A DNA stretch of 64,000 nucleotides from a virus. The notes beneath the pieces are model-generated. The model was not told the DNA's origin and ran no database searches. It worked only from the letters and a program-made list of their open reading frames with translations. This document shows, piece by piece, positions 1 to 64,000 of the stretch. The stretch is taken from positions 1 to 64,000 of IMG/VR virus record IMGVR_UViG_3300020157_000004. One strand, 5' to 3'. Made by a program: the position numbers and the translations under genes. The number at the start of each line of letters is the position of its first letter. The first letter of the stretch is position 1.

Positions 1-3000
1 AAAACCCGCCATCAGCTTGTTTACCTTGTCCCGTTTGGCCTTCTCTTCAGCCGTCTGCCGGTCCTTCAGCATCGAGAACGAAAGGTCGATTTGCTGTAAT
101 ACAGCATTCACCGCGAGGGTGAGTTTTTGCGCGCGCGCGGAGTCGCGCTCGGCCAGCTTGCCCTCCCACGTTTCGGAAGCCAGTTCCGGGAACCTGTCGA
201 AGAGATCGCGCACGGCTGCGATCGGGGCTACGAAGTTGTCCTGAATCTCCGGGATGAGAAGTGCTCGGCGATTCGCCTCGTGGATTGGCCGGTCCTGATT
301 TGCTTCGAGAATTTCCATCCCGCGTTGGCGCACCGTGTCCCCGTCGTTATCAATGGGTCCGTGCTTCTTAAGCCAAAGGCTCAGCGCCGAGGCGTCTAAT
401 GCGTATTTAGTTATCAGCGGCTCGCTTCCGGGCAGCCCCTCAGTCAGGTGGATGAGGTTCCGAAGCATTGCAACCTCTTCGGTTCGGCGGCTGAACCCGA
501 CTGCAAGGCGCTCAAACGCGATGGCCTTCTGCTGTGATTCAACCTGCTCCGGGTCATGCTTGATTCCCAGCTTCCTTAACGCCTCAAGGAACAACTCGCT
601 GGAGGGGGTCGGTATGGCTGATGGGTCGATGTCACCAATGATGGCTGCGTCCCGCGCCGAGGCGTAGAGCTTGTTAAGGTCGGAGACCGACTTCCTGTAA
701 AGGGCGTTGTTGTATTTCTGTGAGCTGATGCCGGAAGCCAGCTTCCCGATTCTGACCAGCTCGCCTTCAGCTATGCGAGGAATCTCGGTGGCGTCAGCCA
801 GCGCATCGTTGCCCATGTCGGCAAGGCTGTATCGAACAGCGGGGCTTCCAATCTCATCGGCCATAGACTTGGCCTTTACGGATCGTTCCGTAACCGGCAA
901 TTCAGGAGCCAACTTGTTAGGGGCGGGCATTGACACTTTCATTCTTCCGCCAACACCGTCGTCTATTTCTCCGCGCATCGCCGAGGCGGCCTCCGAAGTG
1001 GTAAGGTGGCGGATGAGTGGGTCGTAGCAGACCAGCTTTCCATCCTTTCCAACCGCCATGTTCCGGATGTTCACATCCGCGAGCGCCACCACGGAGCCGT
1101 CCTGCAATCGCTTGAAGAAAAGGCTTCGGAACACATCTCCGCCGCCGCCGATAACATTAACCTTATATTGACCATAGCCGTTCTCGGCAGCCCACTTTGT
1201 CAGCATCTCCTCCACCTTGAGCGGGCTGGTGTCAATACCGCGATCCAGCATGGCAGCCTTGTCATTCAAGGCGTCTCCAGCCATAGGCTGCCTAACAATG
1301 AAATCACCCCACGGAAGAATGCCAACCACCTGTTGCGGTGCCACACCTGGAAGCTGCGACATCGTGGTTGAAAGCTTCAGAAGCGGAGGAACACCGCCGC
1401 TGTCATCCTTGTTGTAGAAGTTGTGGTCATCCGAACTGAACCCGATGCCCTTGTTCAGAGGACTCAATGCGTAAGTGCCGCGCGTTTTCTTGTAAACGTA
1501 ATCACCAAGCTTGTAGGCGGTCGCCGTCGAGCCTTGACCGAGATGTTCACCGGCTGCTCGGAACGCTTTCTGGAAGCCGCCGTTGGTCAGGATGGCATCG
1601 GCAATGATGTCCACCATCATCAAGTCTCGGGTGTTCACCAAGTCGTCCGCCCATTTGAGCAACTGCTTGGAATCCCAGTTGGACCCAGGCTCATCCAACG
1701 CCTTGGAAACAAGGGGGTCGGAGATTATATCCTTGATGCGATCAGAGGCCAGCTTGGCGTCAAACTCCGACAGATCGCCTTCGCTTGAAGCTGAATCTGA
1801 GGTCTTGGAAATCCACTGGTCAACCTTGGTTACCACTGGATGCTGCATGATGGATCGAAACTGTTCCTCTGAAACTAAAGGAACCAGCTCTCTCAACCCT
1901 TTCACGGCAGCCTTCAGCTCCGGGTCTGTAATTGAACCAAGAGGCTCTGTGAGAATGTTCCTTACAGCGCCGTCGGCAGCTCCCGATTTTCCTACGTTCG
2001 CGTAGGCCTCAGACCAATCATTGTCCGGTATTCTGGATTCGAGCCTAATGACTCGTTGTATAACCTCTCTTGCTCGGCTTTCCGCCGATCTATTGCGCGA
2101 AACAACTTCCGACGAGGAGCCTCGTCCTTTGCCCATTTGGCTACGTGCTCCGCCGCCCGCATTGTCTCCGGTAACGATGACGGCTCCAGTGAGCGGGTCG
2201 CTGCCTTGGTGGGTGTATGGTTCTTGTTTTGCATAAATATCGGTGAGTGTTTTTCCGCTGCGTTTGTCGCCGTATTTCGAGAGCAGTTCCACCAATCGGT
2301 CCTGCAACTGTTCATAGTCTTGGACACGATCACGGAGCGACGGACCAGACTGGCGCAAGTAGTTGACGATCTTGTTGAGCACGTCCATTGCAAACTTCGC
2401 CAGCTTTGCAAAAACAGTTGGGTTCTTCTTGGCCAGCTTCTCAAGCAAGGCCGGGTCTTCAAACGCCTCGCCCAGCAAATCCCCAACAACCTCCCCTGTG
2501 AGTTCTCCCTCCGAGATTGGAACTTTATTTGAGGCGTGGCGTCTCTTTACAGCATCAGTTAGTTTGCCCAGTTCGCCCTCATTCAGTGCGTCCAGCAGCA
2601 ATTTGCTGATAGCCTTAAATGTCTGTGGGTCGTGAACCTCAATCTCGTGGCCAAGTTCATGGCCAATGAAACGCATCGCTGCGCTACCTTTGTGGTCAGA
2701 AACAAAGATGTATCCGGGTAGCTGAACCGCATTAAACAAAATGCTCCTCGGTTGGTTCACTAGCGCAATTCGCAAACCGAATGCCGACTGCAAGGCGTCC
2801 TTCAACTCGGGCGTAAAACCTCCAAGGTGAGCCTGAACCAATGGGTCACTCAAGTTTGCCTTGGACGGGAACACCTCCCTGCCTGATTCGAGCAGTGAGT
2901 TGAGTCTGGAAATAGCTTCAAGGTCCTCCGTCGTGATCGAAGAAAGCGGATCGCCAAATCGGACTGGATTCTTCGGCTTGTAAACCTCCGGCTTGCCCAT

Positions 3001-6000
3001 GTCGGCAAGGCTGAAACGGATTTCACCCGAACGCATGTTGCCGGTTATACTGTTTGGCAGCTTGCCTTCGATGTCTGGCTGTCTCGGGGCGACCGGGGCG
3101 ATAGTTTCAGGAGACGGTAAATTGTTTATCTTTCCGAATACATGCTCGTCACGAACACGGATCGGCTTATCCGCATCTTTCGGGTTAATCTCCTTCAGAA
3201 CCGGGTCGTAACACTCAACCTTGCCCTGATCGTTCACGCCCAAGTTTCGGGCGTTTACATCAATGGCCAGAACGATGTTGCCGTTGGGCAGACGATTCAA
3301 ATAAACACTCTGGAAAACATCGCCACCGCCAGGAACCATCTTGGTTGTCTCAAGCCTTGTCCATCCGTTCGGCTTGGCCCATTCCTCCCATACTCTTTGC
3401 TGGGACGATTCCTCCGTCATCGGTTTGCCGCCAACCGACCACGCCTCTGTGGCCTGCTTGCCGGAACTTGGTTGCCGCACGATGTATTTACCGTCCTCTG
3501 TAATTCCAACAAGCTGGGTCGGGGTCATTCCCGGAAGCTGGTTCATCAGCTTGATCCTCTGAAGGATCGGCATCACCGAACCACCTTCACCCGTATAGAA
3601 CGCATCGCGAAGGCTATCATTAAACGTAAGAAGCTTGTAATGATCCTGAAGGGCAATCGGCTGATGGGTCAGCTTATACACAAGCCCGTCGGCTAACACG
3701 GCCACCGATTCCGACCCTCTTCCAAGCAGCTTATTCTTGGGCGCGTAATCCGGACTGTTGCTCATCCAATCCCGAAACGGCTGGCTAAACGTAAAAAGAA
3801 TTTGGGCTGCTGCGGAATTGTTACCAAACACCTCCTCCATCTCCGGAGACTTACCGTTGTATTTGCCGTCATCAATATCCAGATACGCTTGACGGGCTTT
3901 GTTTATAGCCTTGGTTATCTCCGATCTCAGATTCAGACCGGACAAGCTGTAATCTATTTTATTGCGGTCAAGGAATCCAGCCACATCTTCAAGGCTGCCA
4001 ACCAATTCTACAACGTGTTCTATGAGATCATCTTTTGTGTCTTCTTTCCAAAGGCTCGGCCATGCGGCATCCGAAACTGCCCATAACAATTCGCCACCCT
4101 CCTTAATTATCGGTGAATCAACCGAATGAAGGAACAAGTCCTTAACCTTATTGTCCGGAATCAGCGGTATGTATTTCCTTAACTCAGCAATTCCAGACCT
4201 GATCTCCGGGTCGGATATGTGGTCAAGCGGGCTTGAGATATACCGTGCAATGTAGGCATCGGCCAGTATGGCTCTTGCGTCTTCCTCCGAGTATCTTCCC
4301 CATACGCCACCTTTTACAAGCTTGGCAAGCTTGCTGGTGTAATCCTCTCCAGGAGCGGATGTGCGAGACAAATTGTTTACAATGCGAGTAAACGCTTCCT
4401 CTGCAATTGCAATCGCTCGTTCATTTGCTTTTCCAAGATTTCTCTTTGCGATGGTTTGGGCGCGTCCGGTGATTCCGGCCCCGGCATCCATGACCACGGC
4501 TGCCCCGGTTTGCCGGTCGATTCCGTTGTCTGTTGTTTTGATGGCTTCAGTTTCATAAGTCTTTGTCCTGATTTTACCGGTTCCACTTCTGCGGTCAGCA
4601 TACTCCGCAATCAAAGCGGCCACCTGCGATTTCAGTTTCTCGTAGTCCTTGGCTTTGCCTTCAAGAGTTCCTCCGACCACGTTCCGGAACGCATTGATGA
4701 TCTTGGTGAGAATGCCCATCGCAATATCAGCAAGCTGCTTGAACAGTTCGGGTGACTTCTTGGCCAGCTTCGACCAAAAGCCCGGATCACGCCCAAGCTT
4801 GCGAAGCAATTCCGCAGCGGCTTCCGTTCTCACGTTAATATTATCCGCTGTCGGTTCTACACCGCCTTCAAACTTAAACAGGATGCTCGCCTGCTTGGCC
4901 AATTCCGCATCCCAAACCCCCTCCTTTAGCCCCTCCTTCAGAACCTTGAACAGCTTCAGCAGCAGATCGGGGTGGTGGATTGCCATTTCGTGAGCAACCT
5001 CGTGCAGGAACAACGGAAGCGTGTCCTGATTTACAGGCGTGTGGTCCGATATGAAGACGTATCCGGGAATGGAGTGAATACCCTCAAACAGGATTCTTCC
5101 CTTTTGGTTCACGAAGACGATCCGAACACCCAAAGCCTTCTCTATCGCATCCTTTATTTCAGGCGTAATCCCCAAGCGCTCCTGCTCGGCGGGGTCATGC
5201 AAATTCACCTCGGACGGATCGACCCTGTATCCCTTTAAGTTCTCCGATCCACTTCCGGTGAGAGTGGTCAGATGATCCTTTAGTTTGTAGTCGAGATCAA
5301 CGACAGCACCGAAGTCCTCTTCCGTAATCAACGAAAGGGAATCTCCGACCGGGACTGGATTCTTCGGCGTGTAAACCTCTGGCTTGCCGGAAGCCAGCGA
5401 GAACTTTACAGCCCCTTTGGTCGGCGAAGATTCACCCTTACCTGCGGTTGTTTGAACGGTCGGTTGGACGGCTCCGGAATTACCGGGGCGACCGGGGTTT
5501 GGCGTGCCGGGCGACCCAGCAGCCTGCCCTCGAACTGGGTCAACCGCTGACCTATTCCCGACGCTATCCGATCCGATAACGCCCGATTCTCGGCTTGTGT
5601 TCTCATTGTTGTATTCCTGAATTGTTTCTTTGACGAAGTCCACCATCTGCCCAGCAAACACTTTGGCTTCACGCATGGCTTGCGCGTGGCTCAGGGCCAG
5701 CTTCCCCTTGGCTGCTACATGCGCCATGAATTCCATCGCCATCGGCATGATTCGTTCCTGATGGAATGACAGCCAGTCAGCCGCATCGAGTTCCACTCCG
5801 CTTGCGGACTCGGCTTCCAGCCATTTCAAGACCTGATCCCTGATGCTGTGCTGTTCAAGGAATTCTTGGGCGGTCTGTGAAATGTAAACCCCTTGGTCAA
5901 CTTCAGCTCCGCCTCCAGAAGTCAGCTTGCTCTGTGGTGCCTCTGAGTTCGGAACTTCGGCCAGCACGTTGTCACCCTCGCTGGCAACCTTGCTGTCGGC

Positions 6001-9000
6001 TGCTTCATTAAGCCCCTCCGATTTACTACCGGCCCGATCCTCACGCGCGGATGCGTCGTCAACAATTGTGTCAACGTCATCCTGAGACAGCTTGCCTCCC
6101 TGTTCGGGAAGGAGTTGCTTGCTGCCTTTGTTCGTGCGGAGGACATACTCCGGAGTCCAATTGCTATTGGTCAGCAATACAGACAACGGGATCGGATTGC
6201 TGCCAGGAATCTGAGTCCACGCCGTCCGGCCAGCACCCTTGGCCGGGGTTTTGGCAACCGGCTTCTTGTCGGGAAACGGTATGACTCCGGTGGGCTTCTC
6301 TTTTGCGCCCTTAACACTGGCGGTGGAACCGTAAACCGGGACCACGATGAACTGTTTCTCACCACCCACAACCCGGCTAAGGATCAAATGCTTTCGGGTT
6401 GAGCGACCCATCACCCCGGTCTCGTTGGTGGCTCCAAGCAAAAGCTTCTTGGCCAACTCTGCGTTGGAAATATCCCACTCACCCCATGCAGGCTCATCTT
6501 GGCCATCGCCAACTTCACCCGCAACCTCCGCCACCCTTTGAACAGCTTTGGCTTTGACGTAGGTGGCCTGCTCTTTGGTGGCCTTCTCGGCTTTCAGCCC
6601 GGCGATCATGGCCTGAACGGACTTGATGTATCCAGCCTGCCCCTTTACAGCGGCCATCTCGGTCCTGTTATTGGCAATCAGACGCTTCTGGTGGGGGCTT
6701 AGGTCGTGCCCGGCAAATGCCAAAGCCAAAGCCTGTTCCACTTTCTTTGGTCCGGGGCGATCTCCGATTAACTGTTCGAGCTGGCTGATCCGATCGACAA
6801 GCGACCTCGCTTCAGCCTGATTCTCACCGTGATCGAGCAGGCTAATTACAGTGTCCGCTGAAGAATTAACCACCGCACCCGGCGTTCCGGTAGGTTCCTG
6901 TGGCTTTCGTCCGGTAATAGAAGCCGCAGGCGCGGACCCTACAGAATTCGCTGGAGCCTCCGGGGCTGAACCTGATGCGGTGGAAACTGGTTTGGATTGG
7001 GCTGGCTTCCTCTTCGCCCCTGTCTCGATGGCGGCGGGGGTGGGTTTGGATGGATTCGTCTTTATCGGCTGAACCCTGTCACGGTAAGCCACTGCTTCGA
7101 CTCTTGTCGAAAAGTAAGGGGCAAATCCAATCACCCTGAAATACGGTTTCCCAGTTGACTCTTCCTTGTATTCTCTAATGGGATGGTGTTCATCACGGAT
7201 AGATTTTAATGTCTCCTCGGTTTTCGCTTCGGCAGCATCCGCTTCCTCGTTACGTCGCCGCTCGTCTTGCTCTCGCTCTGCCGCGTGTTTAGCTGCCAGT
7301 GCATCTGCCCGCTTTGCCTCGATAGCAAGCATCGCGTCGATGTCGGCCTTGTCAGCACCGTTCTTGGCAAGCCAGTCAATCATTTGCCTTCCGCTTCGAT
7401 ACAACTGAGGGCTGATGCCGGACAAATCGTTGATCTTCGATCCTCCAACCGAGGCAAACCAAACTGCAACATTGTGCTTGGGAATCTCCACACCCTTAGC
7501 AATTAGAATCTTGTGAAACTTATCTAGTAATTCAGAATTAGCCGCGAATTCGGCAGGAGTCAGCGATGCTGCCCCTGTCTCGGCGGTGGGGGGCTTGGCT
7601 GGAGCTGGAGCTGACGGAGCAGCCCTGCGAAGCACTGGAGCCTTTACCGAAGTTGTTTCTCCTGGGCGATTCCCGATTTTTTCACGGGACGGTGTTGATC
7701 CAGTCCCCGGAACCGTCGTCGCGGTGGTTTTATTTTCCGGAGAAATTACAGCGGGCTGGCTGCTCGCGGTGGGGGCCGATCGTTCGCCTGGATTCTGCTG
7801 ACTGTTTAGCCACACCTCGGGGTGGATGAGTTCATCCAACTCTTGAGCCGTTGCCGCCGCCTTGTCGTGCGTTTGCTTGGCCAGCCTCATCTTGTTGGCA
7901 AGCTCGGAGACATCAGCTTTGGAAGCTTTAGCCGCCTTGGCGGAAACCGGCTGAGCTGCCACCGGCAAATCTCCTTTCAGACCACCAAAGTCCAAATCCC
8001 GGTTGGAGGCGTGGAGTTCGGCCACCGCTTTGGGATTGCTGATCTTGGCGTTGTTGGCGGCGTCCAGCGATTCCCTCTCGGACAATCCGCTTTTACCGTA
8101 AACAGCGGGGTCTTCCGGAAATTGCTTTGCCTCGTAACCGAACTTCCCGCCGATCCGTTTGAACTCGCTCAGGATGTGCGCCCGAAGTTGTTCACCGATG
8201 GAAACGCCAGCGGGAAGAACAGAGTCCAGTTGCTCTGCAAACCGGGCGGCTGTTAGATCATCAACCCCCTGCGTGGTCAGTATCTTTGAGATGCCCCTGG
8301 CTCTTCCGGGAAGGCTTTCCGCCGCTGTAAATGGCGTCGTGGTGGGCGGAGGCGTGTCTGACCCCGGCTTGTTCTTGAAGTCGAAACTTGGACCCTTCCA
8401 GTCGGACGGCTTGGTGATCGGCTTGGTGTTGGAGAACAATCCCGGTATCGAGAAACCAAGATTGGAACCAGCAATCTCAACCAACCGTCGCTTGAACTCG
8501 CGAGGGTCTTCCTGTGAAAGCCTGTAAAGTTCCGGCGATTCAGCAACCGCCATCGTCGTGTCAAGCACAGCTTGATTGACCCCGAAGTGGATCGCCTTCT
8601 GGGCCGACGAACTTTCAAGCTGCGTCACGCCCTCTTCGAGACCGGCTTTAATCAGCTTGGTGGAGAGCACATGCGACAGCTCACCCACCTTCGGGATGAT
8701 AGCGCCAACCGCTGCCCCCTTTGGATTGAAGTTGCCATCTTCATCCGCTCCGAAAGTAAGCCCTGTTCCCAAAGCCTCCGCAACCCTTCCGGGTCCGATC
8801 GCTGCGCCCATGCGTTTCGCGACCAGAATCTTTGCAACCGCATCCGCCGCCCCAAGAGACATCTTGGCCAGCGTGCTTTTCCAGCCAAAATCCCCGTCCT
8901 GTTTCTCCTCTTCGGCTGCGCTTTCAATGGCAGCATCAACCGGCATCTTTTCCGTGCCGTGCGCCGACCGCATGTTCCCGCCACCCTCCGGGTAATCAAT

Positions 9001-9639
9001 CGCGGCAGCCGCAGTGTCAGCCAAAACCGCCTTAGCCCATCGACCGGCTTCATTACCAACTCTACCGGGGATGGCCAGAGCTTTGGGAACCCACTCCAGC
9101 GGCGTGTCATTCAGCCCGCCTTTTATGGCATGATCCACCCGCTTGTTCTCGGTGTCCTGCGCCAGTATCTCAAGGCCCACCGGCAACTTCTTGTCCGCAA
9201 AGTATGCCGTTGATCCGTCTCCGGTTTCGTTGGGCCTGGCATTTACAGGAACATCACCCTGGCCGAAGTATTCGTCAGGGAACTGAATCTTTCTGATCTG
9301 CTTCTCCGTGTAAGGCAGCGTGTAATTTGGAGTGATGTCACCAGTGTCATACTGCCGAGCCTCTGATGGTGATAATCCTCCGGGATCACCAGCGCCAAGC
9401 GCGTCCGAAATGAAAGCTCTGGTTGCTGAAGGATGGAGGCTGCTGTCGCTTTCCAGTCGCCGGGCCATCTCGCCCTGAAGCTCACGGCGCTTTGGAAGAT
9501 TCTCGAAGTCATAGGAAAAGTCCGGGTCTTGCAGGAACTCCGGATAATTTTCCCCGATGTGTTGCGTCAGGTCGTTCTGACTCATCGAGGAGAACTGATC
9601 GCCCTGTCCCCGGAAGTAATCTAAGACCCCGTTCGCCAT
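1..9639 (-). CDS. Giant polyvalent ejection protein with two metallopeptidase-kinase modules (partial, runs off left edge)
   Basis: An open frame of 3,213 codons starts at ATG 9639 and is still open at base 1, so the C-terminus is missing. Visible domains: an N-terminal region of unknown fold (residues 1-1400), rich in Ala/Pro/Lys linkers; an HExxH motif (HEVAH, about residue 1546); a kinase-like domain with a glycine loop (GRGSESV, about 1973), VYK lysine (about 1989), a DVNARN catalytic-loop equivalent (about 2127) and YDP (about 2145). A second copy follows: HELGH (about 2327), glycine loop GQGSTATAYK (about 2701), DVNIRN (about 2855) and CYD (about 2873). The kinase segment fits the Kinase-PolyVal family of phage and plasmid polyvalent proteins. 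Location after tail nozzle and internal virion proteins suggests an injected, T7 gp16-like ejection protein. Linkers reading [RK][FY]SLA precede each module. Family assignment is from motifs only. Confidence 0.8.
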   Translation of the reverse strand, partial: MANGVLDYFRGQGDQFSSMSQNDLTQHIGENYPEFLQDPDFSYDFENLPKRRELQGEMARRLESDSSLHPSATRAFISDALGAGDPGGLSPSEARQYDTGDITPNYTLPYTEKQIRKIQFPDEYFGQGDVPVNARPNETGDGSTAYFADKKLPVGLEILAQDTENKRVDHAIKGGLNDTPLEWVPKALAIPGRVGNEAGRWAKAVLADTAAAAIDYPEGGGNMRSAHGTEKMPVDAAIESAAEEEKQDGDFGWKSTLAKMSLGAADAVAKILVAKRMGAAIGPGRVAEALGTGLTFGADEDGNFNPKGAAVGAIIPKVGELSHVLSTKLIKAGLEEGVTQLESSSAQKAIHFGVNQAVLDTTMAVAESPELYRLSQEDPREFKRRLVEIAGSNLGFSIPGLFSNTKPITKPSDWKGPSFDFKNKPGSDTPPPTTTPFTAAESLPGRARGISKILTTQGVDDLTAARFAEQLDSVLPAGVSIGEQLRAHILSEFKRIGGKFGYEAKQFPEDPAVYGKSGLSERESLDAANNAKISNPKAVAELHASNRDLDFGGLKGDLPVAAQPVSAKAAKASKADVSELANKMRLAKQTHDKAAATAQELDELIHPEVWLNSQQNPGERSAPTASSQPAVISPENKTTATTVPGTGSTPSREKIGNRPGETTSVKAPVLRRAAPSAPAPAKPPTAETGAASLTPAEFAANSELLDKFHKILIAKGVEIPKHNVAVWFASVGGSKINDLSGISPQLYRSGRQMIDWLAKNGADKADIDAMLAIEAKRADALAAKHAAEREQDERRRNEEADAAEAKTEETLKSIRDEHHPIREYKEESTGKPYFRVIGFAPYFSTRVEAVAYRDRVQPIKTNPSKPTPAAIETGAKRKPAQSKPVSTASGSAPEAPANSVGSAPAASITGRKPQEPTGTPGAVVNSSADTVISLLDHGENQAEARSLVDRISQLEQLIGDRPGPKKVEQALALAFAGHDLSPHQKRLIANNRTEMAAVKGQAGYIKSVQAMIAGLKAEKATKEQATYVKAKAVQRVAEVAGEVGDGQDEPAWGEWDISNAELAKKLLLGATNETGVMGRSTRKHLILSRVVGGEKQFIVVPVYGSTASVKGAKEKPTGVIPFPDKKPVAKTPAKGAGRTAWTQIPGSNPIPLSVLLTNSNWTPEYVLRTNKGSKQLLPEQGGKLSQDDVDTIVDDASAREDRAGSKSEGLNEAADSKVASEGDNVLAEVPNSEAPQSKLTSGGGAEVDQGVYISQTAQEFLEQHSIRDQVLKWLEAESASGVELDAADWLSFHQERIMPMAMEFMAHVAAKGKLALSHAQAMREAKVFAGQMVDFVKETIQEYNNENTSRESGVIGSDSVGNRSAVDPVRGQAAGSPGTPNPGRPGNSGAVQPTVQTTAGKGESSPTKGAVKFSLASGKPEVYTPKNPVPVGDSLSLITEEDFGAVVDLDYKLKDHLTTLTGSGSENLKGYRVDPSEVNLHDPAEQERLGITPEIKDAIEKALGVRIVFVNQKGRILFEGIHSIPGYVFISDHTPVNQDTLPLFLHEVAHEMAIHHPDLLLKLFKVLKEGLKEGVWDAELAKQASILFKFEGGVEPTADNINVRTEAAAELLRKLGRDPGFWSKLAKKSPELFKQLADIAMGILTKIINAFRNVVGGTLEGKAKDYEKLKSQVAALIAEYADRRSGTGKIRTKTYETEAIKTTDNGIDRQTGAAVVMDAGAGITGRAQTIAKRNLGKANERAIAIAEEAFTRIVNNLSRTSAPGEDYTSKLAKLVKGGVWGRYSEEDARAILADAYIARYISSPLDHISDPEIRSGIAELRKYIPLIPDNKVKDLFLHSVDSPIIKEGGELLWAVSDAAWPSLWKEDTKDDLIEHVVELVGSLEDVAGFLDRNKIDYSLSGLNLRSEITKAINKARQAYLDIDDGKYNGKSPEMEEVFGNNSAAAQILFTFSQPFRDWMSNSPDYAPKNKLLGRGSESVAVLADGLVYKLTHQPIALQDHYKLLTFNDSLRDAFYTGEGGSVMPILQRIKLMNQLPGMTPTQLVGITEDGKYIVRQPSSGKQATEAWSVGGKPMTEESSQQRVWEEWAKPNGWTRLETTKMVPGGGDVFQSVYLNRLPNGNIVLAIDVNARNLGVNDQGKVECYDPVLKEINPKDADKPIRVRDEHVFGKINNLPSPETIAPVAPRQPDIEGKLPNSITGNMRSGEIRFSLADMGKPEVYKPKNPVRFGDPLSSITTEDLEAISRLNSLLESGREVFPSKANLSDPLVQAHLGGFTPELKDALQSAFGLRIALVNQPRSILFNAVQLPGYIFVSDHKGSAAMRFIGHELGHEIEVHDPQTFKAISKLLLDALNEGELGKLTDAVKRRHASNKVPISEGELTGEVVGDLLGEAFEDPALLEKLAKKNPTVFAKLAKFAMDVLNKIVNYLRQSGPSLRDRVQDYEQLQDRLVELLSKYGDKRSGKTLTDIYAKQEPYTHQGSDPLTGAVIVTGDNAGGGARSQMGKGRGSSSEVVSRNRSAESRAREVIQRVIRLESRIPDNDWSEAYANVGKSGAADGAVRNILTEPLGSITDPELKAAVKGLRELVPLVSEEQFRSIMQHPVVTKVDQWISKTSDSASSEGDLSEFDAKLASDRIKDIISDPLVSKALDEPGSNWDSKQLLKWADDLVNTRDLMMVDIIADAILTNGGFQKAFRAAGEHLGQGSTATAYKLGDYVYKKTRGTYALSPLNKGIGFSSDDHNFYNKDDSGGVPPLLKLSTTMSQLPGVAPQQVVGILPWGDFIVRQPMAGDALNDKAAMLDRGIDTSPLKVEEMLTKWAAENGYGQYKVNVIGGGGDVFRSLFFKRLQDGSVVALADVNIRNMAVGKDGKLVCYDPLIRHLTTSEAASAMRGEIDDGVGGRMKVSMPAPNKLAPELPVTERSVKAKSMADEIGSPAVRYSLADMGNDALADATEIPRIAEGELVRIGKLASGISSQKYNNALYRKSVSDLNKLYASARDAAIIGDIDPSAIPTPSSELFLEALRKLGIKHDPEQVESQQKAIAFERLAVGFSRRTEEVAMLRNLIHLTEGLPGSEPLITKYALDASALSLWLKKHGPIDNDGDTVRQRGMEILEANQDRPIHEANRRALLIPEIQDNFVAPIAAVRDLFDRFPELASETWEGKLAERDSARAQKLTLAVNAVLQQIDLSFSMLKDRQTAEEKAKRDKVNKLMAGF
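1000..3018 (-). other. Module B of the giant protein: second HExxH plus kinase-like copy
   Basis: The second copy starts at the RFSLADMG linker (3018-2995). HELGH lies at 2661-2647, the glycine loop LGQGSTATAYK around 1542-1510, and DVNIRN with CYD between 1077 and 1021. A third RYSLADMG linker (834-811) ends the module and introduces a further region that continues past the left edge. The metallopeptidase and kinase signature residues are retained in both copies, which argues that both are active or binding-competent rather than decayed. Confidence 0.72.
3159..5406 (-). other. Module A of the giant protein: HExxH domain plus kinase-like domain
   Basis: The first internal copy begins after the KFSLA linker (5406-5392) with the phrase KPEVYTPKNPV. 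It contains HEVAH at 5004-4990, LGRGSESVAV around 3726-3697 and the kinase-like loop DVNARN at 3261-3244. Parallel phrases in module B (KPEVYKPKNPV, then HELGH, LGQGS, DVNIRN) show an internal tandem duplication that has diverged strongly at amino-acid level. Confidence 0.75.
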
Positions 9640-9648
9640 AATTGGTGT

Positions 9649-10668
9649 TCAGTTGTTTTTCTCACTCCAGTTAAGATAGCCGTCGAAGCTTGGCGGTCTC
9701 GGTCCCGCTCCATTTGGGGCGACATTTCGGTTGGCGGCGCGTTCTTGGGCAAGGATTGATTGGATCGGAACTCCCGAGTCTTGGCTGCCCGTGTTGGACA
9801 CGCCAAACCGTCTTCCATACTTATAGATCGACCCATCGGGACCGTGATGGAATCCAGACTTGCCGAAGCTCTTTACCATATCAGCCTCTTCATCAATGGC
9901 CGCCTGTAACTGCCGTGAAAGCTGATTGGATTTATGGGTCGTCGCGTAGATGTCGTCATTGTAACGCCTAGCCGCCAAGGCGTTCTCCCGGTTTGCGGTG
10001 TCTGCGGGACTGCCTTCAAGCGCGAGCTTGTCCTTGATCGGCACATACCCATCAAGCGAATTGGTTTTGTCGTCCCACTTCACAGCCCCGTTCGAGTCAG
10101 CCTTGGCGTGGATCGAATGAACAAGAGCCGCATGGTCATCAAGGCTGGCTTGCAGTTGCTCTTTGCGAGCTTTCAGGGCTTGCAGTTGTTGACTGAAAGA
10201 ATCAGCAATTTCCTGGTCTCCGGAACCATCGTCATACTTGGATGCAGCCCTTTGGTTTTGCCCGGACTGACGAAGCTGCTCCTGTGATAATCGGCCATCG
10301 GAATTGATGCCCGCAACATTTTCGCGCCCCTCAAGCTTCCTCTTCTCGTTGTCAATGAAGTCCTGCTGCTTCCGGTCAGCCAGGTCAGACTGATAGTCGA
10401 AATTGCGTGAGGCCAGATCGTCAGATCTTAGGTTATGGGCGTTGTCATTGTTTATCTTCGCCGCATAGTTGCGGGCGTTTGCCTCCGCAGCAAGCCGATC
10501 GTTATACATCTTGATCGCGTTCTGCTCTGCTCCCTCCGCGCCACCGTAGTCGTTGCCGTAAAACGGAAGGAATACAGTGCTGCCATCATTATTGGATTGC
10601 GGCCTGCTCCCGTAGTAATCGGTAAGCACTGGATTCCATCGGGCCGATTCCTGCGCTTGCGGTGTCAT
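9649..10668 (-). CDS. Internal virion protein, coiled-coil, unknown
   Basis: This 339-residue protein is rich in Gln, Asn, Ala and charged residues, with long predicted helical or coiled-coil stretches in the middle (about residues 55-250). It has no signal peptide or membrane segment. It lies 9 bp upstream of the giant polyvalent gene and downstream of another Ala/Gln-rich protein, the position T7-like phages use for internal virion (ejection) proteins. No enzymatic motif is visible. The role as a core or ejection protein is inferred from context. Confidence 0.6.
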   Translation of the reverse strand: MTPQAQESARWNPVLTDYYGSRPQSNNDGSTVFLPFYGNDYGGAEGAEQNAIKMYNDRLAAEANARNYAAKINNDNAHNLRSDDLASRNFDYQSDLADRKQQDFIDNEKRKLEGRENVAGINSDGRLSQEQLRQSGQNQRAASKYDDGSGDQEIADSFSQQLQALKARKEQLQASLDDHAALVHSIHAKADSNGAVKWDDKTNSLDGYVPIKDKLALEGSPADTANRENALAARRYNDDIYATTHKSNQLSRQLQAAIDEEADMVKSFGKSGFHHGPDGSIYKYGRRFGVSNTGSQDSGVPIQSILAQERAANRNVAPNGAGPRPPSFDGYLNWSEKNN

Positions 10669-10686
10669 AAGGTTTGGGTTGCTGTG

Positions 10687-11595
10687 TTAGTTGGAGCCAC
10701 CCATGTAATTGGATTGAGTGGTGGCGGATGCCTGATTGTTTTGAACGGTTTGAGTCGGGTCGATGCCGGGGTGTTTTGCGATCCCGTAGAAGGTGTTGGT
10801 GAGATTCTGGCTGCCCAGTTGACCCAGCGATGACGACAATCCGGCCAGCATTTTCTGCCGCTCCGTTACCCCAAGCAGGTTCGCCTGTGATGGAATGAGG
10901 GCTAGGTTCTGCCGCTGACCAACCGATCCGAGTTTCGATTGGGTGATGAAGTTCTGGTCGGCCCGCTCCTGCTCAGCGTCATCCATAGCCGCCTTGGCGT
11001 TGATGTCAGCCGCCTTGCTCAAGGCAAGACCCTGCATGTAGGAACCAGTTCCAAGCGCACGACCACCACCACCCATTGTAAGCTGGTTGGATGAGAGCAT
11101 ACGCTTTGAGTCCCCCAGCGATCGTTGAACCACTTGACCAAGCGCCTGCGCCCGGTGATTGCGAATCGTGGCAAGCATGTCGCTTAACCCGTTGCCGGAT
11201 ACAAAATCAATGTTTCCAGTATCCGATCCCGTGGCACGGTTAATCGCTGGCGTGGCCTCATCCACTGCACCTGAATACTTCGCCAGTGAATCTTGGTTGG
11301 CCTTCCCAAGTTCGTCGAAGCTCTTAAAGAGTCCTCCCAGCCGGTCGTCAACCGCCTTTGATTTTACGTTGGAGATCGTCCCGAAAGGGTTGTTTGGTCC
11401 GCTGGCCCCTCCGACTGCGGATACCGCATACGGGTCTTCAACTGGTGCCACCGCCTTTTTCTCCCCCCACGGATGCAGTAATCCGCCAGAGTAGTTACCA
11501 GCGAGAGCATCTGATTGTGAAACATGCTCACCCTTTGCGTTTCGATACACCCCAGTATTGGTGTCCCATGTCAGGTAAGGAGGGGTTTTTGGCAT
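10687..11595 (-). CDS. Internal virion protein, unknown
   Basis: This 302-residue protein has a short N-terminal segment mentioning PYLTWDTNTGVY, a flexible Gly/Ser linker, then an Ala/Leu/Gln-rich helical part (about residues 130-280) containing SQANLLGVTERQKMLAGLSS. It is leftward, 18 bp from the next gene. Composition and place between the nozzle protein and the giant ejection protein suggest a T7 gp14-like internal protein, but I see no diagnostic motif. Confidence 0.58.
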   Translation of the reverse strand: MPKTPPYLTWDTNTGVYRNAKGEHVSQSDALAGNYSGGLLHPWGEKKAVAPVEDPYAVSAVGGASGPNNPFGTISNVKSKAVDDRLGGLFKSFDELGKANQDSLAKYSGAVDEATPAINRATGSDTGNIDFVSGNGLSDMLATIRNHRAQALGQVVQRSLGDSKRMLSSNQLTMGGGGRALGTGSYMQGLALSKAADINAKAAMDDAEQERADQNFITQSKLGSVGQRQNLALIPSQANLLGVTERQKMLAGLSSSLGQLGSQNLTNTFYGIAKHPGIDPTQTVQNNQASATTQSNYMGGSN

Positions 11596-11670
11596 ATTAT
11601 CTTAGGTTCGTTTGGGCTAGGCTGTAACGATGTAAAATGGGAGCACCACCATGCCCGTAATGTCAATGGA

Positions 11671-11925
11671 TTAGGTTGCTGTTCTTGTGGAAGCGTTGGT
11701 CACAGCGCCGAGCCGCAGCGAGTTCAGGGTTGATCCAAGGTTGTTCTGAACCTGCACCCGCCACTGCTCCATCTGCTTGTCGTGCCACTCCCCGTAAGCT
11801 GTCAGTGATGGGTAGTTGCTTCTGAACCACTCAGCCGAGCTTGGCATCTGCGGGAGAACCAGCGTGGTTGAGGAGTTTACAGTTACGGCTAGCCGGTTGA
11901 TTGCCTCCAAGCTGTCTCTTGCCAT
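11671..11925 (-). CDS. Small virion-module protein, unknown
   Basis: An 84-residue protein beginning MARDSLEAINRLAVTV, ending in a Thr-rich tail. It starts 3 bp from the stop of the nozzle gene and is clearly in the same leftward unit. It could be a small tail or assembly factor; no family recognised. Confidence 0.55.
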   Translation of the reverse strand: MARDSLEAINRLAVTVNSSTTLVLPQMPSSAEWFRSNYPSLTAYGEWHDKQMEQWRVQVQNNLGSTLNSLRLGAVTNASTRTAT

Positions 11926-11928
11926 AGG

Positions 11929-13947
11929 TTACACCTCCGGGCATTTAGCCCTTCCGCCGATTTGTAAATGAATTGCCGAGAAGGCGGCTCCGCCACCAGT
12001 CCCGTTTACACGAAGCTCGAAGTAAAGATTTCTGGCCTGGAACCACATCGGCCAATTTACAGTGCTGGCCGGGGTTGTCCCAGCGATTCCAGTCAAAGGA
12101 CAGGCGAGAGACTTGGGGTTCATGTTCCGCCAAACCACTCCGCACCCGGCTCCCCCACTATTGGAGTCAGCCGCCGTTGCGGAAACCCCGATCCGAAGGT
12201 TCAGGTCATTTGGCGTGGTCTGTGTTTCTGCGTAGAATTCCACGTCGAGCTGCTTGATCTCTTTTATGTCGGAGGGAGCGCGGAAGGCTATCGGGCCGCT
12301 CCGCATTATGCTGCTGTATCCATCTCGACGATAGGCTCCGCACGCTGTAAATGCTGTGCAGAACTCCCTGTAATAAACTCCGCCATCCTGCTTCAGGCAG
12401 TAATCGGAAGCTGAAGCGAAGACGAGCAATGCGTCCACCGAGCACTCGCGGCATTCCGCCTCCAGATCAAGCGAGTTCAGGTAGGCGCACAGTTCCCCGT
12501 CAGGCGAGGTGTCCCAGTAGTTTTCAATCTCCTGACCACCGCTACCCTCCATCCGCTCCGTAGTGAAACTGCTGGTCGTGTTTGTGGTGCATCCGGAGGC
12601 GGCGGGTGAAACGCAGGGGGTTCCTTCCTTGATTGATGGCGATATAAAATCCGCAAGCAACGCCAGATCAGCTTCCGTGCAGAAGCACTTGCCAAGCACC
12701 TCAACGTCAATGTCCGGCCTTAGATCAGGCGCGTGGTTCAAGGCCGCCGTAAAGCCGAAGTCGATGATGTCTGCGTGCTGGTATTCAAGGTTGAAGGCAA
12801 TGGTCCGCTGAGGAAGCGCGGATGAGGTCTCCACCCACGAGACCCGGTATTCCTTGGACGGCTGATGGTAGCAGGCAGTGTGTCCAAGGCAGGTTGTGAA
12901 GCTGATGGTGTTGAATATCTCCGAGCTTCCAAGGTGCATCCACGCAACCCGCTCCGGCTTGGGAAGGAACAGGTTGAAATTGTAAACCCCGTCACGGCCC
13001 AGGAAGTAATGATCCTGACCGCTGGAGGCAAGTGTGTTTGGAAAAGCGAGGCAAGCCTCACCAGACTCGGGCTGCGAGTATGCCTGACGGAAGTTGAATA
13101 CTGATGCCCCTCCAATTACAGATACCTGCCAGATCGACTTGTTGGTGTAGATAAGCAGGTAGTCACCCATCTCCATCATCTTGATGATCCGCTCCCCATA
13201 TCCAAGGTCTTGGAAGCCTGCGATTGAATCATTGGCTGGGGTAAAACTGGTTGGCGCATTCAGGTCGGACCACACCACCCGATGTGGGATGGACTGGCCA
13301 TCCATGATTACGTCTCCGAGAAGAATGATCCCCTTCCATGAGTAGATCGTGGAAGCCCGCGTCAAACCGATTTCAGAAAGGGAGTCGATGTCCGAAATAT
13401 CAACCGTGGCGCAACCGGTGTTCGGTTGATCCGGCTGGTCAATCAGCCACTTCTTTGGGGCGTCGTGGTTGTTGGTGAGAATTACAGCGTCATTGACTTG
13501 AGCGCACTCCCATCTTCGCTCCGGGAGACCGGACTGGGCATCACCGCCAAACGAATCGGAGATGAGCTTCCAGTTACCCTTTGTGAATCGTGAGCAATAA
13601 ACCCGGTTCTGGGTGGCCGCCAGCAATCGCCGGACTCCGGTTGTTGATACAACCTCGAAGAGGGTTGTGATGGGTTGCCGGACACCGCTGCCGACGTTCA
13701 CCGACCCAGTGCAACCTTCGGTTGGGCTGACGATGAGCTGGTCGTGTAAATCCTGATTGTTGTAAATGGCTGCCGACGGGATCAGTTTTTGAAACCCCTT
13801 TCTTCGGCTGGCCTTGCCAGAACTGAGCGCGTCCACGTTCTGACGCCAGCGCCAGCTACCAAATGAAACCTCCGATGGAAGCGATCTGGTATCGAGTGGC
13901 CCTGTCAGCGGGGCCAGTGTGATTGTTTTGACGCATTCGGATGGCAT
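11929..13947 (-). CDS. Tail nozzle / beta-propeller-like tail protein
   Basis: This 672-residue protein is beta-rich. It contains HRVVWSDLNAPTSFTPAND (about residues 220-240), GYGERIIKMMEMGDYLLIYTNKSIWQV (about 250-275) and HYFLGRDGVYNF (about 315), phrases typical of short-tail nozzle or stabilisation proteins of the T7 gp12 / P22 gp10 type, where a beta-propeller forms the tail tip. It carries unusually many cysteines in the C-terminal third. It lies between the adhesin and internal virion proteins. Function is inferred from these phrases plus context. Confidence 0.65.
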   Translation of the reverse strand: MPSECVKTITLAPLTGPLDTRSLPSEVSFGSWRWRQNVDALSSGKASRRKGFQKLIPSAAIYNNQDLHDQLIVSPTEGCTGSVNVGSGVRQPITTLFEVVSTTGVRRLLAATQNRVYCSRFTKGNWKLISDSFGGDAQSGLPERRWECAQVNDAVILTNNHDAPKKWLIDQPDQPNTGCATVDISDIDSLSEIGLTRASTIYSWKGIILLGDVIMDGQSIPHRVVWSDLNAPTSFTPANDSIAGFQDLGYGERIIKMMEMGDYLLIYTNKSIWQVSVIGGASVFNFRQAYSQPESGEACLAFPNTLASSGQDHYFLGRDGVYNFNLFLPKPERVAWMHLGSSEIFNTISFTTCLGHTACYHQPSKEYRVSWVETSSALPQRTIAFNLEYQHADIIDFGFTAALNHAPDLRPDIDVEVLGKCFCTEADLALLADFISPSIKEGTPCVSPAASGCTTNTTSSFTTERMEGSGGQEIENYWDTSPDGELCAYLNSLDLEAECRECSVDALLVFASASDYCLKQDGGVYYREFCTAFTACGAYRRDGYSSIMRSGPIAFRAPSDIKEIKQLDVEFYAETQTTPNDLNLRIGVSATAADSNSGGAGCGVVWRNMNPKSLACPLTGIAGTTPASTVNWPMWFQARNLYFELRVNGTGGGAAFSAIHLQIGGRAKCPEV

Positions 13948-13953
13948 ACGGGA

Positions 13954-15036
13954 TTACCAGTTGATTACAACCTTTCCGCCAAGACCGGCAACACCATTAG
14001 TTTTGTCCAGCCAAAACGGACTTGAGCCGCTGTTAGCGCTTCCATGACCACCAGCGCCTCCGGTTCCATAGCCAGATTCAACCGGGGTTGTAGCTCCACC
14101 AGCACCACCATTATATCCAGAGTGGGCAGAGCCAGCAGAGCCAGCGGTAAATACAGCCCCAACTGTTCCGGCAGCATAAGAGCCTCCGGTTCCACCAGCC
14201 CCGCCACCTCCACCAGCCGAGCCTTGTTGGCCATCAGAACCGGCCAGAACCCATAGCAAAGGAGTTGTCCCTCTAAGGATTGAGCATGATGCTGCTGTGA
14301 TCTGGACGGTCAGTGTCTCGCCTGGAGTTACAGTGATGTATTGTCCAGCCAATGTGCATACCACATATTGACCTCCACCACCACCACCACCCGCTGTAGC
14401 GACTGCAATTGAGGGTATTGCCCACGGAGAGGACGAACCAGGGTTTCCGCCCGTGCCTCCCGGTGCCCACATTTTTATCCCGATCTTATTGGATGCTAGA
14501 GGATTCGGAACCACAAAGCTTCCACTTGCCGCAAATGATTGGCTAGTTGCGCCTCCTCCACCGGTTTGCGAATAACCTGAATCGGTCGCGGAAAACCCTG
14601 TGGTTGCCGTGGCGTTCAACGCCTTCACCGCGTAGAAGTAAACCTGAGCCAGCGTTGCCGTGGTGTCACTGTAAGTAGTGGTGGTTGCAGTTCCAATCTG
14701 CGTCATGGTTGACGTGTCATTTGTGAGACCTCTCCAGATCGAATAACTCAACGCCGTCCCAACGCTTCCCCATGTCACCGTAACCTCAGTGGCAGAGTTT
14801 CCATCACTTGCAGAAACTCCAATCGGGGCAGTAAGCCCAGTGGTAGTGAGGCTTAGCCACGCCTTCAGATTGTCCGATGCCGTGAGGTCGGTGTTGATGG
14901 CCCACGCAATCATCTTCGCCACCATGAACGTCATCCGGCCCGGCAAACCAAGAAGCTTGTCGCACCAGCTAGAGCTGGCGGTAGGTTGCAAAGCGTTGAA
15001 ATCGTCCGGCCCGTAAGGAGGTAGTGCGTCAGCCAT
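13954..15036 (-). CDS. Tail adhesin: fibronectin-III-like domain plus glycine-rich receptor-binding tip
   Basis: This 360-residue protein has an N-terminal helical part (1-75), a fibronectin type III-like domain (about 80-165; APIGVSASDG...VTWGSVGTALSYSIWR...TYSDTTA), and a C-terminal glycine-rich region (170-360) with runs such as GGGGGGGQYVV and GSAGGGGGAGGTGG. Glycine-rich tips of this kind occur in phage receptor-binding adhesins such as T-even gp38, where they fold as polyglycine sandwiches. It is likely at the tail or fibre end and would bind cell-surface glycans. Confidence 0.62.
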   Translation of the reverse strand: MADALPPYGPDDFNALQPTASSSWCDKLLGLPGRMTFMVAKMIAWAINTDLTASDNLKAWLSLTTTGLTAPIGVSASDGNSATEVTVTWGSVGTALSYSIWRGLTNDTSTMTQIGTATTTTYSDTTATLAQVYFYAVKALNATATTGFSATDSGYSQTGGGGATSQSFAASGSFVVPNPLASNKIGIKMWAPGGTGGNPGSSSPWAIPSIAVATAGGGGGGGQYVVCTLAGQYITVTPGETLTVQITAASCSILRGTTPLLWVLAGSDGQQGSAGGGGGAGGTGGSYAAGTVGAVFTAGSAGSAHSGYNGGAGGATTPVESGYGTGGAGGHGSANSGSSPFWLDKTNGVAGLGGKVVINW

Positions 15037-15117
15037 AGGTTTTGCAGTTGTGCCGCTGTGTATCGTTACGAGTTTTGGGCGACTTGCAAGTTAGTTGTGC
15101 CACCACAGCGATGGAGT

Positions 15118-17117: not shown

Positions 17118-17126
17118 GAGCGCTTT

Positions 17127-18818: not shown

Positions 18819-18842
18819 TGAGTTGATCCGATCAACCCGGCT

Positions 18843-55965: not shown

Positions 55966-56004
55966 ACCAACCCACATCAACGAAACAGCAAACGCAATCG
56001 CATT

Positions 56005-61572: not shown

Positions 61573-64000
61573 TCAGCGGCGGCTGCGACGGCTGCGGCTG
61601 CGTGATCTGGAGCTTCCGCGACGCACGCTGACTCTTGGGGTGGTGGAACCACCAGTCCGGCGTCTCGAACTACCGGCCCGGCGTCGCAACCTGCTGACCC
61701 GACCGGAACCCGTGTCGGCCAGTTGTTCCACGTCACTGCTTTCAGAGACACCGTCAGGGGACTGAACCTGATTGCGGCTGCGGCCACCACCGCTCCCTCT
61801 TGAGCGAAGCTTCACTCCACCTGTTTGGGTGGAGGACTCTGAATCTAATTCCTCGCCAGCGTCGCGGGTGCGCGCGCGCGTAGTTCTGGAAGATGATCCA
61901 CCACCCTCACTCCTTGGCGTCCGGCTTGGTGATGTGTTAATTACAGAGCCGGACGAGTCGGAGAAAAAGGACTCACCCATCTGCCATCCACCCAAAGTCT
62001 TGCCCCATGCCACCCGCTGTGAAGGGGACAACGCGGCAAGGCGCTGCTCATACTCGGAGTCGGTCAGCGTCTTGCCTCCGTTAGACCTCGTGGCCGGATT
62101 CATTGCCGAGTAGTCGCGACGAACTGCGGCCTCCGCCTTCTTCTCGTCCATCCCACGGTCATGGATGTAGTAGTCGGTCAACCGCTGCATCTGACGCTTG
62201 GCTTCCCTCATGTGCTCCGCTGCCCCGGCGCTGTCGCCCGCAAGCATGGACTCGTGGGCCTGGTAGAGTGCGTCAGCCCACTTGGTCTTGATGCCGGTGG
62301 TGGGTCCGACTGCATACGGGATTGCCTTGGAGGCGTTGCTCTTTGGGTCAACAATCTTTCCCGCCTCCGTCATGGCCGACTGTCCAGATACTCTTGACTT
62401 ATACCCAAGCATCGACCTCAAGTCAGACGCAAGCGGGGCGAACCTGTCCGCGAGACCTTTTATCACAATGTCCCAATCCTCGGGCGGAAGGACAAAGAAT
62501 GCGGTCATTGATTTTACAGCATCCGTTATGAGCGTGAGAGGAAGAAGTTTGGACCCAATGTCGAACCCCTTTCCGCCCTGCTGAATGTTCAGTGCTGTGA
62601 GCACGACATCCCCAACCTGACCAAGGTTTGACAACATTGCCGACGCACTGCGAAGCGTGAGTCCGTTACCGTTCCAGAAGGAGGCATCGCTGGGGATTAT
62701 CTTTCCGAACTGGTGAAGAACCTTCCGGTCATATTGACCGGGCACTTCAAGGCTCGCGATTCCAAACAGGAAGGCGGCCAGCCCAAGCATCATTGCAGTG
62801 GATAGCGCGTGCGTGAAACGGGATGGATTCGACCGGCCCGCCACAGACCGGAACTCACCGAACAGCTTGCCGGTGTAGTCAAAGATGTAGCCCCTCAATG
62901 AGACGGCAGCCGACAGCATACGGTCGGACTTGATTGCCTGCGCGCGGTTGATTCCGTTCGGTGAATTGATAAGCCCGATAATCAATCGCTTGAGGCTGTC
63001 CATCTGCGCGTCCGTAAACAACGGAACATCGGCGGTCCCGCCGCCGCTTCTCTGATGGTAGTCAAGCAGGACGTGCTCCAGCGGTATGCCTGCCATCTGA
63101 AGCATTTCCCGGATGTCGGCAGTGTGCTGTAATTTGTCACTGCTAAGGAACCTGCGGGACATATCTTCCGAATTTACAAGCGTGTCCCTGGTTACTCCCG
63201 GACGAGCGCCGTGCAGCAGTGCGGCCCGCTTCAACACCTTGACCAGATTATCAACGATGCCTTTGACCTGTGTGTTGAGAACGAGGTCCGAATTAGTAAG
63301 CCCGAACTTTGACTCTATGCCTTTGGTGGTTCCGGAGAACGCCGCCCCGGCCACCCGCAATGCTTTTCGAGTCTTCGGGAACGGTGAAAGGAATGAGCGG
63401 GAGAGGTCTTGGTCGTCTTGGAACTCGGCAGCTTCACGCAAAGCCTGCCTCACGGTTTCCATAAACGAACCCTTGCGACCAAAGCCAAGGCCGCGCACAT
63501 CCTCGATGCCGTCCTGAATGTATTTGCGATAGAGCGATTCAGCCCACTGAAACACGCTGGCATAGGTTGCCGGATGCTTGCTCTTCAGATAGCGAAGCGA
63601 GCTTTGCAGGCCGGGAACCGAGGCTGCAATTCTGGTGGCATACTTTGAAATCACAGCAGCGGAACCCGCCAGTGATTTGATGAGGGCAACCGTGCGCCCG
63701 AACTCGTTGAGCTTCGAGCTGACCAGATACACCGCTGTCATGCCCTGCGTAATGTTTCGGAGGGCAACCTTCGGACTCATCAATAGCGATCTCACAGCAA
63801 GTCCGATACCGCCACGAATGACTTTGCCCAGCGGTGAAGGCGTGGTGTCCCGGCGCAGCAACACTTCATTCAGCCTGCGGACAGCGAAGTGCAACAGCTC
63901 CAGTTGAGATAGGCTCCATCCGGTCGGCAGACCAATCGGATTGCCGGGCCTTGTTCCCGGTTCAACCACTGTGATTCTTGATTGTAGTTCGTGCTCGGCC
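61573..64000 (-). CDS. Large virion/ejection protein, C-terminal part (open at right edge)
   Basis: An open frame enters from the right edge and ends at 61573, covering about 809 codons here; the true start lies outside. The visible part is helical (VRRLNEVLLRRDTTPSPLGK; KVALRNITQGMTAVYLVSSK), contains a hydrophobic segment (LSTAMMLGLAAFLFGIASLE, about residue 410 of the GTG-started form), and ends in an Arg/Ser-rich tail (SRSRSRSRRSRR). This is the style of the C-terminal region of large polyvalent or ejection proteins, such as LPD38-type regions, with a DNA-binding tail. It may be the continuation of the giant gene at the left edge. Confidence 0.6.
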   Translation of the reverse strand, partial: AEHELQSRITVVEPGTRPGNPIGLPTGWSLSQLELLHFAVRRLNEVLLRRDTTPSPLGKVIRGGIGLAVRSLLMSPKVALRNITQGMTAVYLVSSKLNEFGRTVALIKSLAGSAAVISKYATRIAASVPGLQSSLRYLKSKHPATYASVFQWAESLYRKYIQDGIEDVRGLGFGRKGSFMETVRQALREAAEFQDDQDLSRSFLSPFPKTRKALRVAGAAFSGTTKGIESKFGLTNSDLVLNTQVKGIVDNLVKVLKRAALLHGARPGVTRDTLVNSEDMSRRFLSSDKLQHTADIREMLQMAGIPLEHVLLDYHQRSGGGTADVPLFTDAQMDSLKRLIIGLINSPNGINRAQAIKSDRMLSAAVSLRGYIFDYTGKLFGEFRSVAGRSNPSRFTHALSTAMMLGLAAFLFGIASLEVPGQYDRKVLHQFGKIIPSDASFWNGNGLTLRSASAMLSNLGQVGDVVLTALNIQQGGKGFDIGSKLLPLTLITDAVKSMTAFFVLPPEDWDIVIKGLADRFAPLASDLRSMLGYKSRVSGQSAMTEAGKIVDPKSNASKAIPYAVGPTTGIKTKWADALYQAHESMLAGDSAGAAEHMREAKRQMQRLTDYYIHDRGMDEKKAEAAVRRDYSAMNPATRSNGGKTLTDSEYEQRLAALSPSQRVAWGKTLGGWQMGESFFSDSSGSVINTSPSRTPRSEGGGSSSRTTRARTRDAGEELDSESSTQTGGVKLRSRGSGGGRSRNQVQSPDGVSESSDVEQLADTGSGRVSRLRRRAGSSRRRTGGSTTPRVSVRRGSSRSRSRSRRSRR

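Follow-up and report, generated by a model that had tools for sequence, protein, structure and literature searches.

Giant proteins encoded behind the virion genes have been described in Bcep22-like phages. The DarB-like protein of the Burkholderia phage JC1 is 4,515 aa long, takes up 22.1% of the genome, and was detected in purified virions by 51 unique peptides (PMC9144972). The Erwinia phage PEp14 shows a layout similar to the one reported here, in which virion genes are followed by a 4,914-residue protein. A wider class is that of the polyvalent proteins (Iyer et al. 2017, PMC5512222), which combine several disparate enzymatic domains. In that account, single domains can be repeated within one such protein, with up to 12 copies of the ART domain (WP_023121221.1) and up to five of the peptidase, the latter being present more than once in about 8% of the peptidase-bearing members. 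Four ART-PolyVal stretches were also observed in one polypeptide of the Dolichospermum phage Dfl-JY45 (L026, positions 13509-20669).

The giant protein analyzed here is encoded by an uncultivated virus that infects bacteria (IMG/VR record IMGVR_UViG_3300020157_000004); the first 64,000 nucleotides of the record are referred to as the window. It shares with the DarB giants of Bcep22-like phages (JC1 gp69 and PEp14 gp27) a length in the range of 4,500-4,900 aa, a share of at least one fifth of a 60-66-kb genome, and a gene position after the virion genes in a temperate podophage with RecT and integrase genes. However, the domains carried by those giants that were considered (methylase, helicase, ParB or ART) are unlike its own, and no homology to them was detected in its N- and C-terminal (non-effector) parts. 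With the polyvalent proteins (PMC5512222) it has in common the very long multidomain form, the zincin-like metallopeptidase, the kinase-like domain and the likely delivery with DNA, but it carries no recognized Pfam polyvalent domain, and its whole peptidase-spacer-kinase unit is repeated, an arrangement not described in the consulted part of that account. The assignment to the polyvalent type made in the preliminary description holds, as disparate enzyme-like domains are present in a long phage polypeptide, the peptidase being recognized by homology and the kinase by motifs and weak fold matches. The multi-ART proteins likewise carry effector copies in one polypeptide, but as repeats of a single domain and not of a two-enzyme module. 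The duplication had also been called unusual; this stands for the combined module, but not for peptidases or ARTs alone, for which multiple copies are published in the same account. What is new is thus the repetition of a module that joins two enzymes, with one position being the core and the other variable.

The giant gene and its surroundings

The minus-strand frame from position 9639 to 1 was open for 3,213 codons up to the window edge and is broken by nothing other than the contig ends, in agreement with the single frame of at least this length described earlier. Positions 3-122 of the window are an exact copy of positions 66156-66275 in the 66,278-bp record, and this 120-bp terminal overlap indicates a circular or circularly permuted genome of about 66,153 bp. 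When the ends were joined at the overlap, the frame was kept and a total of 4,739 residues was obtained with the end at 61573; hence the ORF listed at 61573-63999/64000 is the C-terminus of the giant protein. The gene occupies 14.2 kb (21.5%) of the 66.15-kb genome. The contig ends disagree in their last two or three bases, with an effect on residue 3213 only. The join was independently supported by a giant homologue of 3,826 residues in the nearest relative, hereafter G001 (IMGVR_UViG_3300017777_003723; terminase 78% identical), which aligned without a break over residues 2205-4630 of the giant protein with 45.6% identity. The three related records G001 to G003 look like one virus, so a single distinct relative is known. 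The positions of the features are given in Table 1.

Table 1. Features of the giant gene, its modules and its neighbors (window positions unless another locus is named)
Feature	Position	Strand	Basis
Giant gene, residues 1-3213, running on past the contig ends to 61573	1..9639	-	Frame and terminal overlap
Giant gene, C-terminal part, about residues 3932-4739	61573..64000	-	In-frame join; G001 homologue unbroken there
N-terminus (residues 1-255), conserved; identity to G001 and G002 about 40%	8875..9639	-
Middle region (residues 935-1412); identity to G001 about 30%	5404..6837	-
Module M1, residues 1413-2208, missing from G001	3016..5403	-	BLASTP, MAFFT, G001 comparison
M1 zincin-like peptidase, 1482-1690; HEVAH 1546-1550 (window 4990-5004), third ligand E1606	4570..5196	-
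M1 kinase-like domain, 1965-2160; G-loop 1973, K1989, Q2056, D2127-N2132, D2145	3160..3747	-
Module M2, residues 2209-2936, orthologous to the only G001 module (42%)	832..3015	-	Alignment and tree
M2 zincin-like peptidase, 2266-2470; HELGH 2327-2331 (window 2647-2661), third ligand E2383	2230..2844	-
M2 kinase-like domain, 2693-2888; G-loop 2701, K2717, Q2784, D2855-N2860, D2873	976..1563	-
FSLA, opens M1	5392..5403	-
FSLADM, opens M2	2998..3015	-
YSLADM, closes M2	814..831	-
19-nt exact direct repeat, copy 1, M1/M2 border, encodes SLADMG	2995..3013	+
19-nt exact direct repeat, copy 2, far end of M2	811..829	+
Sole strongly hydrophobic segment, residues 4330-4348, also in G001	62749..62805	-
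Arg-rich tail, last 60 residues, net +13 (G001: +20)	61576..61755	-
Small gene adjoining the giant gene, retained in G001 and G002	9649..10668	-
Small gene between the nozzle-like gene and the preceding entry, retained in G001 (49%)	10687..11595	-
Nozzle-like virion structural protein gene, upstream of the giant gene	11929..13947	-
G001 orphan segment, 171 residues (1111-1281), at the place of M1	L011 9031-9543		

The gene set is that of a phage (integrase, RecT, exonuclease, DnaB-type), and the giant gene lies among the virion genes. Within the protein, a Pro/Ser/Gly-rich linker (about residues 1345-1412) ends the middle region, and the module-free C-terminus is the part best conserved in G001 (49%).

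The repeated module and its two enzyme-like parts

The comparison of M1 with M2 by BLASTP gave 278 bits with 29% identity over 746 columns, end to end, and a three-way MAFFT alignment with the G001 module gave 33%. Just two HExxH motifs are present in the full-length protein (residues 1546 and 2327), against 0.07 expected from shuffled sequences. Each copy has KPEVYxPKNPV near its start (residues 1419 and 2216), followed towards its end by DVNARN at residue 2127 in M1 or DVNIRN at residue 2855 in M2, and by CYDP, which ends at residues 2146 and 2874, respectively. The motif series and the end-to-end alignment together indicate a true repeat and not a chance resemblance. Both the two motif series noticed in the preliminary description (HExxH, glycine loop, DVN(A/I)RN and (C)YD, each opened by KPEVYxPKNPV) and the common ancestry of the two modules were thereby confirmed. 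The unit is a module of about 800 residues with a peptidase and a kinase-like part, present in two diverged and probably old copies. No third copy of either domain was found within the giant protein, and pattern searches of viral and genome collections yielded no module copies beyond G001; three DVNxRN matches outside G001 were judged to be chance.

Because the giant gene runs over the contig ends, an assembly or frame artefact behind the gene or its repeat was considered, and it was dismissed as hardly credible. The identity of 33% between the copies rules out an assembly duplicate, both modules lie entirely within the contig, and the join is spanned by the intact homologue in G001.

The HExxH motif and a Glu 54-60 residues later were retained in M1, M2 and the G001 module. 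The kinase series (G-loop, VYK, RQP, DVNxRN and CYDP) was also spaced identically in all three, with 16 residues from the G-loop to Lys, 67 from Lys to the Gln of RQP, 20 from GGD to the catalytic Asp, 5 from this Asp to Asn, and 13 from Asn to the Asp of YDP. In protein kinases, the spacings from the catalytic-loop Asp to Asn and from this Asn to the Asp of DFG are the same 5 and 13. The retention of catalytic residues despite an overall identity of 32-42% argues that both copies are functional.

A plasmid search with both modules gave one match, which lies in Massilia violaceinigra and is a protein of 5,555 residues with InPase, LPD37 and ART-PolyVal domains. This protein sits on an 87-kb 'plasmid' (L019, positions 3223-19890) that is listed as non-mobilizable and is possibly a phage-plasmid. 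A profile built from the M1, M2 and G001 peptidases matched the Massilia protein with an E-value of 1e-13, and about nine giant frames (E 2e-9 to 2e-5) in 80 viral loci that had been fetched with an ART alignment containing nothing of M1 or M2. H1546, H1550 and E1606 of M1 and H2327, H2331 and E2383 of M2 were aligned with the corresponding residues of seven independent giants and of the Massilia protein. The HExxH helix and the Glu of a second helix, which characterize the polyvalent zincin-like metallopeptidases, were both found, and the M2 model shows the helices. The peptidase assumed earlier is therefore best described as a zincin-like peptidase that, on the basis of these profiles, is homologous to the metallopeptidases of ART-bearing polyvalent proteins; this sequence homology is the firmest link of the giant protein to the polyvalent class. 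The His of SDH at the end of strand 2, which marks a widespread phage clade of polyvalent metallopeptidases, is present in M1, M2 and G001, but the Asp that the same clade carries three residues past HExxH is absent, with A, E or K at its place. One further frame with an ART domain and a metallopeptidase related to those of M1 and M2 is an IMG/VR frame of 5,492 residues with an open start (L072, positions 2-16477).

The second domain was not matched in single-sequence scans against Pfam, PHROG and NCBIfam or in a PDB profile search. The HMM comparison with Kinase-PolyVal (PF18762) proposed earlier gave no match at E 10; the control search likewise gave no match over the cut-off, and 50 virus records contained no Kinase-PolyVal members for profile comparison. 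A profile search with the kinase-like domain yielded G001 only. The AlphaFold models had a mean pLDDT of 55.5 for the whole M2 module and 64 for the M1 kinase-like domain, and no Foldseek fold match reached E 0.001. All of the 20 best-ranked PDB matches of the whole-module M2 model were kinase domains of EGFR, the best at E 0.23 with a probability of 0.75. With the model of the kinase-like part by itself, the leading match in the viral library was a ChoK-like Ser/Thr kinase (E 0.06, probability 0.72), and the PDB match list was mixed. Of the kinase proposed in the preliminary description, the motif series with its shared spacing thus stands, but a significant fold match was not obtained (pLDDT 55-64), and the domain is termed kinase-like, with low-confidence models that point to a protein-kinase fold.

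In the published polyvalent kinases (PMC5512222) the C-lobe is gone, strand 2 is preceded by a Glu, the final N-lobe strand holds a Gln, and extra residues separate the His from the catalytic Asp. In the present modules, the Gln lies in IVRQP (Q2056 in M1, Q2784 in M2 and Q1859 in G001), the insert may correspond to the 20 residues from an invariant GGD to the catalytic Asp, and the module ends about 65 residues past CYDP, where the low-confidence models show no helical lobe. The Glu before strand 2 is present in M1 and G001 and is Thr in M2; the catalytic-loop His is missing in all three modules, with an Asp where it would stand. The domain resembles Kinase-PolyVal in the Gln and in the retained catalytic Asp, Asn and Asp, and perhaps in the insert and an apparently missing C-lobe, but differs from it in the replaced Glu of M2, the Asp for His and the lack of a Pfam match. 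If the assignment is right, it represents a kinase-like family outside the coverage of current family models.

Age and origin of the two modules

G001 carries one module only, which is 42% identical to M2 and 32% identical to M1; the bootstrap interval for the excess of the M2-G001 identity over that of M1-M2 is 6 to 14 points. Rooting the tree on the peptidases of other giants placed M2 and G001 as sisters (96/92), with M1 just outside. Constraining M1 and M2 as sisters cost 4.9 log units with an AU p of 0.06, so that a recent duplication is disfavored yet not formally rejected, and the branching order of M2 and G001 is supported but not beyond doubt. The position of M1 implies either that the copies are old and G001 then lost M1, or that M1 was imported. 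As far as the sequences tell, one of these two histories, a duplication older than the phage split with loss of M1 in G001 or an import of M1, is most likely.

The first 120 alignment columns are an exception, with identities of 56% for M1-M2, 44% for M2-G001 and 38% for M1-G001, as would be expected if border sequences were exchanged. FSL(A/G) stands at the start of each module, and the 19-nt repeat flanks M2 on both ends (0.02 matches are expected by chance). M1 may tentatively be regarded as an import by recombination from the giant gene of a related phage, with borders later homogenized with M2, and this would be compatible with any functional reading of the modules. The placement of M1 outside M2 and G001, the anomalous first 120 columns and the repeats beside M2 speak for such an import, but an older duplication with loss of M1 in G001 explains the same tree, and pattern hunts in viral and genome collections found no donor.

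At the place of M1, the G001 homologue has an unrelated segment that opens with FSL and follows a Pro/Ser/Gly-rich linker; it matched nothing in Pfam above the cut-off. It is conceivable, though doubtful, that FSL-bounded segments are exchangeable cassettes of an injected virion protein (a core module and a variable position, occupied by M1 in one phage and by the unrelated segment in the other) that would be swapped by recombination at the border repeats and released by the peptidases at FSL. The idea that polyvalent proteins in general share an [FY]S[RL] border motif was considered and rejected: a first set of 11 polyvalent proteins had 32 occurrences versus 13.8 expected, but once the ART region had been removed from 80 ART-bearing frames, FSR occurred 31 times versus 20.8 expected and FSL 20 times versus 24.2. 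The border is thus a local feature.

Proposed role of the giant protein

On balance, we lean towards a packaged and injected phage-type polyvalent protein with two competent, anciently diverged peptidase-kinase modules. The gene position, the size and the Bcep22-like precedents suggest such a protein. The virion location assumed earlier agrees with the gene order after the nozzle-like gene and with the JC1 precedent, both of which bear on it indirectly. By this analogy, the giant protein would be taken up into the virions of a temperate podophage, perhaps aided by the Arg-rich tail, and would enter the host together with the DNA. Each module would combine a zincin-like metallopeptidase with a truncated protein-kinase-like domain, the two being separated by a helical spacer. 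The peptidases would most likely either process the giant protein itself, with the modules freed at the linkers after ejection, or cleave host proteins, and the kinases, if active, would phosphorylate host proteins early in infection. For polyvalent kinases, phosphorylation of host proteins has been suggested from their analogy to the T7 kinase (PMC5512222).

A mainly structural protein, serving as ejection conduit or internal virion structure with enzyme-like regions of minor importance in the host, would suit the gene position after the nozzle-like gene, the conserved hydrophobic segment, the basic tail and the conservation of the module-free C-terminus. It is improbable, since all three modules keep the catalytic residues of both enzymes while the surroundings of these residues diverge.

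It is also unlikely that the peptidases cut nothing but the giant protein, that the kinases have one target, and that two modules merely double the dose, a reading which assumes that the effector is present in few copies per virion. Self-processing would agree with the FSL(A/G) border at each module start and with the published view of polyvalent metallopeptidases as processing enzymes and the processing of P1 DdrB before packaging (PMC5512222). However, a copy kept purely for dosage should have stayed similar; beyond the first 120 columns the identity between M1 and M2 is only 29%, which does not exceed that between M1 and the module of the other phage (31%), and M1 carries insertions of its own.

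Under the favored reading of an injected protein with two diverged modules, M2 would be the core copy common to the relative, and M1, at the variable position, would probably provide a second specificity. A second specificity fits better than an extra dose because the modules are diverged and one of them is dispensable between relatives; distinct targets for M1 and M2 are plausible. If this is right, two versions of a peptidase-kinase pair would be delivered in one polypeptide, which would offer a natural setting for the question of how host targets are gained, and the pair of a one-module and a two-module phage gives a means of testing what the extra copy does.

Elsewhere among the virion genes of the window, glycosyltransferase-like and methyltransferase-like genes are located at 17127-18818 and 15118-16461, respectively, and the gene at 20093-21742 encodes 549 aa that include a calcineurin-like phosphoesterase domain (E 1.5e-10). 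Neighboring genes for CobS-like (AAA+ ATPase) and CobT-like cobaltochelatase proteins were observed at 54496-58188 and are also present in G001 (43% and 40%).
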